NCBI GenBank assembly: GCA_021159335.1
Contig: JAGGRZ010000015.1
Coordinates: forward strand, 1 to 54,322
Reading direction: 5' to 3'
Length of the DNA stretch: 54,322 nucleotides
From: a bacterium
Lineage (GTDB): Bacteria > UBP14 > UBA6098 > B30-G16
Shown piece by piece: positions 22,344 through 24,540 of this stretch. The notes below the pieces were generated by a model that did no database searches, was not told where the DNA came from, and worked only from the letters and a program-made list of their open reading frames with translations. The first letter of the stretch is position 1; each line of letters opens with the position of its first letter. The translations under genes and the position numbers were made by a program.

Positions 22344-22754
22344 TTACAGTCCCCTTTTCTTCACGCGCTTTTTGCTCGTCTTTCCCGATTTTTTACTCTT
22401 GGATGTAGGATAAGTCTTGGCCTTCCTGATGGACTTCTTCCTCTCCCCTTCTCCAGACTTTATCAATTTTTTGCTTTGAAGCCTATCGTCAATTCCGTTG
22501 CTATCGTTGTCAATGAAATAGTCAAAAATTCCCTTTATTTCTTCTTCAAGTTCCGCTTTTGATTCAGGGCTCGAGATTATTTCCTTGATTATTGCCCTAA
22601 ATACCCCGCTTGACTTCTTAATAGTGCTATGGGTTGATTTTACTTTCGCCCTGCTTTTCAGGCTGTCCTCACCGGCTGACCGCAACCTCTGAGAAAACAA
22701 CGGCGTTGTTAATATGAGGGCAACTATCGCTATGTTCAAAACTTTTCTCATCAT
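22344..22754 (-). CDS. Small secreted basic protein with a DxDxNGxxD calcium-loop motif, unrecognised
   Basis: Residues 1-22 form a signal peptide ending near LFSQ. A Ser/Lys-rich stretch follows, then a helix (about 50-80). Next is one loop, DNDSNGIDDR (residues 82-91), of the type found in thrombospondin type 3, dockerin and EF-hand calcium sites. The last 35 residues are dominated by Lys, Arg and Ser. Length 136. It lies 41 bp downstream of the CCCC protein in the same direction and converges with tgt across 15 bp. The ribosome site is weak, and either of two adjacent ATGs could start. Function unknown; the basic tail may bind polyanions. Confidence 0.6.
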   Translation of the reverse strand: MMRKVLNIAIVALILTTPLFSQRLRSAGEDSLKSRAKVKSTHSTIKKSSGVFRAIIKEIISSPESKAELEEEIKGIFDYFIDNDSNGIDDRLQSKKLIKSGEGERKKSIRKAKTYPTSKSKKSGKTSKKRVKKRGL

Positions 22755-22795
22755 CTTAATGTTCAGCAGTTTTATTGCCGTGTCAATACATTTGT

Positions 22796-23431
22796 TTAAA
22801 TTCGTCGTCGCGATGTCGGTTTGGACCGTCTTGTTTTCGGCTTGGTTCCATGATATTTTCGAACTTTCATTCTTTTGTGCGGTGTTCGATAAGTTTTTGT
22901 GGTTACAGTTTCTCTCCGCAATACTGTTGTTCCAGACGAATTCGCTCGCGCCCGCGTTGTTCTATAGGTCATAGTTGTGGTTCGTGACCTTGTAACGGTC
23001 TCATGATGCGATGTCGTTCGATATGTAGTTACTTCGCCAAGCCCGTGCCTCCGAACCAGTTCCCGTGCCATGTCGGTGTATGTATATCGATGCGGCAATC
23101 TCACGGCTCTGCGCCAGTAATAACGATGACCAATGTAAACTCGCTCGCAACCAATGCAGGGGTAGCGGTAATATACATAACGATACCAACCGCACGGGCT
23201 GAAATAAATCCTTACTATCCTTCGGCAACATGGTGGCCAATAATCGTATGGAAGGTATATAATCTCCTCGCAGCAGCAACAATCGAAATAATCGTCACAA
23301 TCCCAGATATCTATCCTCAATCCAAACGAAATTCGTATGTTATCCCAACAACAGCAACACTGCGCATTAGCTTTGTCGGCGAACGAAATCGCCAAAACAA
23401 GGATAAGCGTGGCGTATAATATCTTTTTCAT
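22796..23431 (-). CDS. Secreted cysteine-rich CCCC-motif protein, unrecognised
   Basis: A signal peptide (residues 1-23, ending ANA) should release a mature chain starting QCCCCWD. Fourteen cysteines fall within residues 25-95: CCCC at 25-28 and 51-54, CC at 68-69, and singles at 45, 80, 92 and 95, in a Tyr/Trp/Pro-rich context. A Thr/Arg-rich segment (134-182) with repeated TYRTT-like strings and a basic Lys/Arg/Ser tail (183-211) follow. An extended GGAGGTGAT ribosome site precedes the ATG, which suggests high expression. It has no family I know. The composition suggests a disulfide- or metal-stabilised envelope protein. Confidence 0.7.
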   Translation of the reverse strand: MKKILYATLILVLAISFADKANAQCCCCWDNIRISFGLRIDIWDCDDYFDCCCCEEIIYLPYDYWPPCCRRIVRIYFSPCGWYRYVYYRYPCIGCERVYIGHRYYWRRAVRLPHRYTYTDMARELVRRHGLGEVTTYRTTSHHETVTRSRTTTMTYRTTRARANSSGTTVLRRETVTTKTYRTPHKRMKVRKYHGTKPKTRRSKPTSRRRI

Positions 23432-23444
23432 CTTAAATCACCTC

Positions 23445-24350
23445 CTAATTAAATGAAAGGTTCTCTTGCTTATACTCTTTTCCAAAGACTTTAACTTTAT
23501 GCTCGCGAAAGATTTTGGGTAAAGCGACTTTGTCTTTATTTCCATCGGGGGTCGAAAGCTCAGGATTACCTCTATCCGTTTGATATGCCCAGTCGAAAAC
23601 CACATAGTCCCCGCAAAGACATTTTATCCTTATGTGAGCAAAGTGATTGTCTCTCGTCCACACAAGGTATGAATATCCTTCATAGATATTAACCTTAGCA
23701 CCGCTTATCCAGCCATCCTCTGGTGCCCAATCAACATCTGTTAAATCATCCGTCGGTCCGTAAATTAGAATGTCGGTGTTTTCATCGCAGGCTTGAATGT
23801 AATAGCTTTCATCGTAGTCATCATAACCAAAGAAAATGTCAGCGCATGGGCAGTCATACGGCACCACAGACTCGGCGGAAAAGTCATATCCAGCATCATC
23901 AGGAAATTCTTCGACAATATATGCGCGATAGCTATGCCCTTCTGGTCGCGGTGTATCAAACACAAGTTCGTCGGAGAGTTCACTTTCGTTACCCCATTCA
24001 TCAAAGGCGGAGATAGCATAGTAATATGTGTGTCCATTAACTACATCGTAATCTACATAATTTGCTGAGCGGGTTTCGGCGATTAAGTAGTAATAGCCAT
24101 GTTCTGTCCGTGAGCGCCAAACACGATAACCAGCGAGGTCACAGGCACGAACGGGGTCCCAGTAAATATATATTTTACCATCGCCAGTTACAGAATGAAC
24201 ATTCTGAGGGACTGGTGGCGCCCAATAGTCCTCATAATCGTAATCATCACATGGTGGCGGGCAATACCATCGCGGAACATCACACCCAACCGCAAAAACA
24301 AGTATAACACTTAAAAGCATCAAAAACTTTATTTTGTTCGAGTGTTTCAT
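23445..24350 (-). CDS. Acidic FN3-domain lipoprotein, unrecognised
   Basis: The ATG at 24350 is chosen because GGAGGTGAT lies 4 bp upstream and it begins a lipoprotein signal ending VFAVGC (C23 lipidated); a longer opening to 24488 has neither. After a Cys/Asp/Tyr-rich CPPPCDDYDYEDYW segment comes an FN3 domain (about 47-133: GKIYIYWDP, then YRVWRS, then YYYAISAFDEWGNES). A second domain (about 140-265), rich in Asp, Tyr and Trp with CPC and CLC pairs, has no known relative. The mature protein is strongly acidic, in contrast to the two basic secreted proteins encoded after it. Confidence 0.72.
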   Translation of the reverse strand: MKHSNKIKFLMLLSVILVFAVGCDVPRWYCPPPCDDYDYEDYWAPPVPQNVHSVTGDGKIYIYWDPVRACDLAGYRVWRSRTEHGYYYLIAETRSANYVDYDVVNGHTYYYAISAFDEWGNESELSDELVFDTPRPEGHSYRAYIVEEFPDDAGYDFSAESVVPYDCPCADIFFGYDDYDESYYIQACDENTDILIYGPTDDLTDVDWAPEDGWISGAKVNIYEGYSYLVWTRDNHFAHIRIKCLCGDYVVFDWAYQTDRGNPELSTPDGNKDKVALPKIFREHKVKVFGKEYKQENLSFN

Positions 24351-24452
24351 TTTATCACCTCCGCTTAATACTAAACAGTTAGTGTGCCAATTTTGTATTC
24401 CTTTGGCATTCAATAATTTAACAATCCGAGGATTTGGTTTTACATCTTTCTT

Positions 24453-24469: not shown

Positions 24470-24540
24470 TGCCAAGAACTCTTTTCAATGTTGCTTGGGC
24501 GACATTATCGATTATTTTAGGCTAATTGAGAATTGAACTT

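Follow-up and report, generated by a model that had tools for sequence, protein, structure and literature searches.

A recurrent cluster of three exported-protein genes, usually behind a sigma-54-type site, in little-known bacterial phyla

A previously unremarked cluster of genes for exported proteins recurs in many little-known bacterial phyla, usually behind a sigma-54-type switch, and probably builds or services something outside the cell. It is described here from a window of 54,322 nucleotides, the whole stretch of DNA that was analysed, which is contig 15 of a 2.06 Mb genome estimated to be 98% complete. In this genome the cluster consists of three minus-strand genes, called A, B and C below, which, as judged from sequence, very likely form one functional unit. 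Gene A (positions 23445-24350) encodes an acidic lipoprotein of 301 residues, in which a lipobox with its lipid-bearing cysteine at Cys23 is followed by an FN3 domain and a predicted HmuY-like domain. Gene B (22796-23431) encodes an exported protein of 211 residues, rich in Cys, Trp and Tyr and ending in a basic Ser/Thr/Arg/Lys tail, and gene C (22344-22754) a small exported protein of 136 residues that has a single calcium-loop motif and a tail rich in Lys and Arg. The age and spread of gene A exceed what the window sequence alone reveals.

The original prediction had described three adjacent minus-strand genes for exported proteins, separated by 13 bp (A to B) and 41 bp (B to C). The coordinates, the signal peptides at the N-terminus of all three proteins and the sequence motifs (CPPPC, CPC and CLC, two CCCC clusters and one DxDxNGxDD) are all confirmed. 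So is an extended ribosome site on two of the three genes: the extended Shine-Dalgarno sequence GGAGGTGAT lies on the minus strand before A (24354..24362) and before B (23437..23445), where it overlaps the stop codon of A, and was not found before C. This site and the lipobox, AVGC, lead us to place the start of A at its ATG and not at an in-frame upstream TTG at 24488. The net charges of the window proteins are -28 for A, +26 for B and +19 for C; no other of the 50 window ORFs of at least 100 residues is as basic as B or C, and only one is more acidic than A. When searched singly against Pfam and NCBIfam, A, B and C gave no match at all. The claim that none of the three belongs to a known family holds for B and C but fails for A, whose homologues and predicted structure point to an FN3 domain and a HmuY fold.

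The AlphaFold model of A comprises two confident beta domains, with an overall pLDDT of 87. The first (residues 45-132; 23955..24218, minus strand) matches the FN3 structure 3mpc both by PDB sequence profile (E 1.2e-9) and by Foldseek (TMt 0.79), and Pfam fn3 is matched in homologues of A. The second (residues 136-267; 23550..23945, minus strand) is assigned a HmuY-like beta fold from AlphaFold, Foldseek and a sub-threshold Pfam HmuY signal. Folded alone it reaches a pLDDT of 96, and its top 13 Foldseek rows from the PDB are all HmuY-type, related Bacteroides lipoprotein or DUF4466 structures, the matches being BfrB, PinO, HmuY, Tfo, BVU_2192 and BfrC together with the BF2707 and DUF4466 lipoproteins. 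The accompanying scores are modest (probability 0.82-1.00, TMq 0.44-0.67, E 1.6e-3 to 0.3). Pfam HmuY (PF14064) is detected at E <= 0.05 in 10 of 76 A homologues, with a best E of 0.002 and one scored homologue below the curated cut-off; A of the window has no PF14064 match over that cut-off, and comparison of its C-terminal domain with the PDB by sequence profile gave no meaningful match. Because the E-values are modest and the profile signal is sub-threshold, the HmuY link is a fold assignment and not proof of family membership. On the models, A is an FN3 domain joined to a domain whose predicted fold matches that of the HmuY-type haemophores. It shares with the HmuY family (PF14064; HmuY, Tfo, PinO, BfrB) its nature as a lipoprotein and an all-beta domain of the same predicted fold, but differs in the fusion to FN3, in its gene neighbours and in its sigma-54 sites.

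At least two Asp or Glu residues lie at positions +2 to +13 after the lipid-bearing cysteine in 75 of the 76 A homologues. In the window protein, the mature start of which is CDVPRWYC, the acidic run comes later, and the published Bacteroidota form of the lipoprotein export signal is absent directly after Cys23. Conserved disulfide pairs in A were considered and rejected, since the cysteine pairs are not kept among its homologues.

B and C appear from their sequences to represent new families. No curated family matches C or its type of calcium loop, and no resemblance to periplasmic chaperones was found for B or C. Within the class to which the genome belongs, B retains its Cys- and aromatic-rich N-terminal half and is Cys-rich throughout, most members carry an R-x-Y-x-x-x-R-W/Y motif, and the last ten residues have a net charge of +3 to +6 in all 13 of the 13 class members; in some lineages B has a lipobox of its own. 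The exact CCCC clusters are not conserved in the class. With these clusters and the cysteine pairs of A both lost among relatives, the disulfide- or metal-cross-linked structure that had been proposed is unsupported. Two candidate homologues of B, the Trp/Tyr-rich middle protein of Stahlbacteria and the DUF4384 protein, were rejected, the alignments covering signal peptides only.

In C, the conserved calcium-binding-type loop DNDSNGIDDRLQ (22476..22511, minus strand) keeps its pattern in all aligned homologues; it is of the form YD-F-D-x-D-x-N-G-I-D-D, a DxDxDG-type loop that is invariant among them. By this motif C may be classed as an EF-hand-like calcium-loop protein with putative calcium binding. 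A Cloacimonadota homologue (L095:4061-4912) has many DxDxDG-type loops, not one. A basic tail is present in nearly all C proteins, although net charge varies. Opposite charge had been put forward for the proteins, with A acidic and B and C basic: across the class, acidic A (-20 to -36) and basic B (+7 to +40) are conserved, whereas C ranges from -11 to +19 and keeps just the basic tail and the calcium loop.

Gene order was compared across the class by searching 61 genomes. All seven relatives of the same family have A, once as a fragment at a contig end, as does the rest of the class, where one genome (G014) gave only a weak match. B and C adjoin A in these relatives; in all class members whose contigs are long enough, the order is A-B-C or, in two genomes, A-B-D-C, D being a DUF4384 and PEGA protein. 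Scattering of the three genes, for which adjacency across relatives had been proposed as the check, was not seen in the class; this fixed order, and the occurrence of A with a C homologue in several phyla, bear out the view of the genes as one unit. Within the class, DUF4384 is restricted to the two A-B-D-C genomes, inside the operon in both, and none was found elsewhere in the window's own genome. Related families and phyla have exported DUF4384 and PEGA proteins (PF14326, PF08308) encoded in the middle of this operon; the window's genome lacks them and has in that place B, which shows no detectable homology to them. In four relatives (L043:3093-4124, L042, L044 and L059) a GT2 glycosyltransferase gene overlaps the stop codon of C or lies immediately behind it. 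It was rejected as a required operon member, since its homologue in the window's own genome is unlinked (G000:C120:20466-21467).

Beyond the class, no fewer than 222 relatives of A turned up when 84,980 species genomes were scanned. The 80 best-matching ones belong to WOR-3/Stahlbacteria/TA06, Hydrothermota, Zixibacteria, Calditrichota and Cloacimonadota, and further from Eisenbacteria, Gemmatimonadota, Ignavibacteria/Bacteroidota and Poribacteria. In many of the wider loci A is followed by a lineage-specific middle gene and then by a C homologue, the middle gene encoding a DUF4384 protein with or without PEGA, a FecR-DUF6600 protein or a Trp/Tyr-rich basic protein. The exported FecR-DUF6600 proteins (PF04773, PF20245) hold the middle position in Hydrothermota and WOR-3 and are aromatic-rich like B, but they were not seen in the window's class and no homology to B could be shown. 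Under a strict definition of C (short, with a signal peptide, a DxDxDG-type loop and a basic tail), 24 of the 80 wider loci have such a gene downstream of A, while none of 2732 other ORFs from these loci qualifies; this background is rough, real genes being a minority among the ORFs. A occurs without B, C or D in Ignavibacteria and Poribacteria, and must therefore have a use alone; and since the middle gene swaps between unrelated families, one fixed complex is not demonstrable. Some Ignavibacteria/Chlorobi loci (L114, L119, L120, L122, L127 and L131) have a second A-like gene after A, which in L119 is Pro-rich and without an FN3 domain, and in Ignavibacteria loci like L102:7280-11107 A stands between pyrR-pyrB-pyrC and a gene of about 147 codons with a histidine kinase of about 1275 residues. 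In a quick maximum-likelihood tree with weak deep branches, A groups by phylum and the gene architectures cluster on the tree (13 changes versus 42 in shuffles), which together suggest that the descent of A has been mostly vertical and is ancient.

A sigma-54 (-24/-12) promoter-like site, TGGCAC-ACTAA-CTGT, lies on the minus strand at 24375..24389, 39 nt before the start codon of A. Its -24 box is perfect and its -12 box weak; with a score of 11/14 it is alone not significant, and it is not among the 12 strict sigma-54-type sites of its genome. In other genomes, sigma-54-type sites are found at the same place before A. Sites of the form GGCAYN5NTGY, sought within 150 nt upstream, precede 54 of 95 A genes, compared with 2 of 619 controls drawn from the same set of loci (Fisher 2.6e-52, the true p being larger because related loci are not independent). 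The window's genome encodes rpoN (PF04552, E 1.2e-53), as do 15 of 17 class genomes, and a gene for a sigma-54 activator with the GAFTGA motif lies directly upstream of A in most Zixibacteria loci. Sigma-54 control of the A family thus appears likely, while in the window itself it is probable only.

The relatives have 5-16 strict sites per genome, one of which precedes A in 8 of 16. The other strict sites, in the window's own genome and in class relatives, precede genes for type IV pilin, HtrA-like, Hsp20, ABC-transporter and small zinc-ribbon proteins, names that are readings of the sequences and not the outcome of database searches. A small set of such sites recurs in the class (L142, L146, L150 and L152 in the window's own genome, L164-L222 in relatives), and the genes behind them, besides type IV pilin, Hsp20 and small zinc-ribbon genes, include receiver plus HtrA-like, HPF and ABC ATPase genes. 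In the accessible part of PMC4641369, sigma-54 is linked to the cell exterior, including exopolysaccharide and pili, and the sites before pilin, HtrA-like and Hsp20 genes fit that published link. A would have the same promoter type as the sigma-54-dependent pilin and exopolysaccharide genes discussed there, and pilin genes in the present genomes carry it. The A-B-C operon is not described in the accessible parts of the sigma-54 regulon work (PMC4641369, PMC12316311). In the literature as far as it could be accessed, no paper on the operon was found, the five papers that mention DUF4384 were irrelevant by title or abstract and there were none on DUF6600.

The reading we favour, plausible if somewhat short of probable, is that A, B and C form one sigma-54-controlled operon whose exported proteins assemble on the cell envelope. 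A would be located on the external side of the outer membrane. B would dock on A, or a protein of the DUF4384/PEGA or FecR-DUF6600 type would do so in its place or beside it, and C would be a small calcium-stabilised partner. With their Arg/Lys/Ser tails, B and C may bind acidic A, lipopolysaccharide or an extracellular polymer. The assembly would be made together with pili and envelope proteases once a sigma-54 activator calls for a change at the cell exterior.

Two other readings draw on parts of the same evidence. An extracellular matrix or adhesion module, in which secreted B and C would bind exopolysaccharide or extracellular DNA by their basic tails and A would be the tether, accords with the conservation of those tails, with the glycosyltransferase gene that abuts C in four relatives and with the reported association of sigma-54 with exopolysaccharide and pili (PMC4641369, accessible part). 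It nonetheless seems unlikely, given that in the window's genome the glycosyltransferase gene lies elsewhere and that a secretion route for B and C across the outer membrane was not identified. An envelope-stress response operon, with A as sensor or scaffold and B and C as periplasmic chaperone-like or protective basic proteins, is in our view just as unlikely. The sigma-54-type sites before HtrA-like, Hsp20 and HPF genes of the same genomes speak for it, as do the histidine kinase and sigma-54 activator genes that adjoin A in Ignavibacteria and Zixibacteria, but such sites also stand before pilin genes, neither B nor C resembles any known family, periplasmic chaperones included, and the low-complexity, Cys/Trp/Tyr-rich character of B would better suit a structural role.

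The fold of A raises a further reading, that of haem or metal capture by A as a HmuY-type haemophore-like lipoprotein, with Cys/His-rich B helping to bind metal. Besides the Foldseek matches of the C-terminal domain to HmuY, BfrB, PinO and Tfo, and the abundance of Cys in B throughout the class, two His residues are common in the A family, His226 in 64 and His236 in 62 of the 76 homologues. Haem is ligated by two His in HmuY, and two Met have been proposed as ligands in Tfo (PMC6200708). The A family, by contrast, appears to lack a conserved His or Met ligand pair: no His or Met is invariant among the 76 homologues, and the window protein has Tyr at position 226 and so only one of the two common His. 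The domain of A, at 132 residues, is also about 45-60 residues shorter than HmuY structures of 175-200 residues. Furthermore, no HmuR-like TonB receptor stands beside A in the neighbourhoods examined, a divergent TonB-type gene in L081 being the exception, and the control indicated is by sigma-54 and not by iron. Haem or metal capture is accordingly regarded as quite improbable.

The envelope assembly may also be set in a broader frame, which is put forward more tentatively than the assembly itself. An undescribed and ancient envelope system would then exist in the phyla around Zixibacteria, WOR-3/Stahlbacteria and Ignavibacteria, in which a sigma-54-controlled HmuY-fold/FN3 lipoprotein would act as a general surface anchor, and each lineage would equip it with a calcium-loop partner and with an exported middle protein of its own that is basic or rich in aromatic residues.

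The comparison names a conserved, co-regulated operon of exported proteins in mostly uncultured phyla, about the cell surfaces of which almost nothing is known. A further suggestion is that the HmuY fold extends well beyond haem capture in Bacteroidota. Finally, it offers a testable sigma-54 regulon for these phyla, composed of the A-B-C operon, type IV pilin, HtrA and Hsp20.
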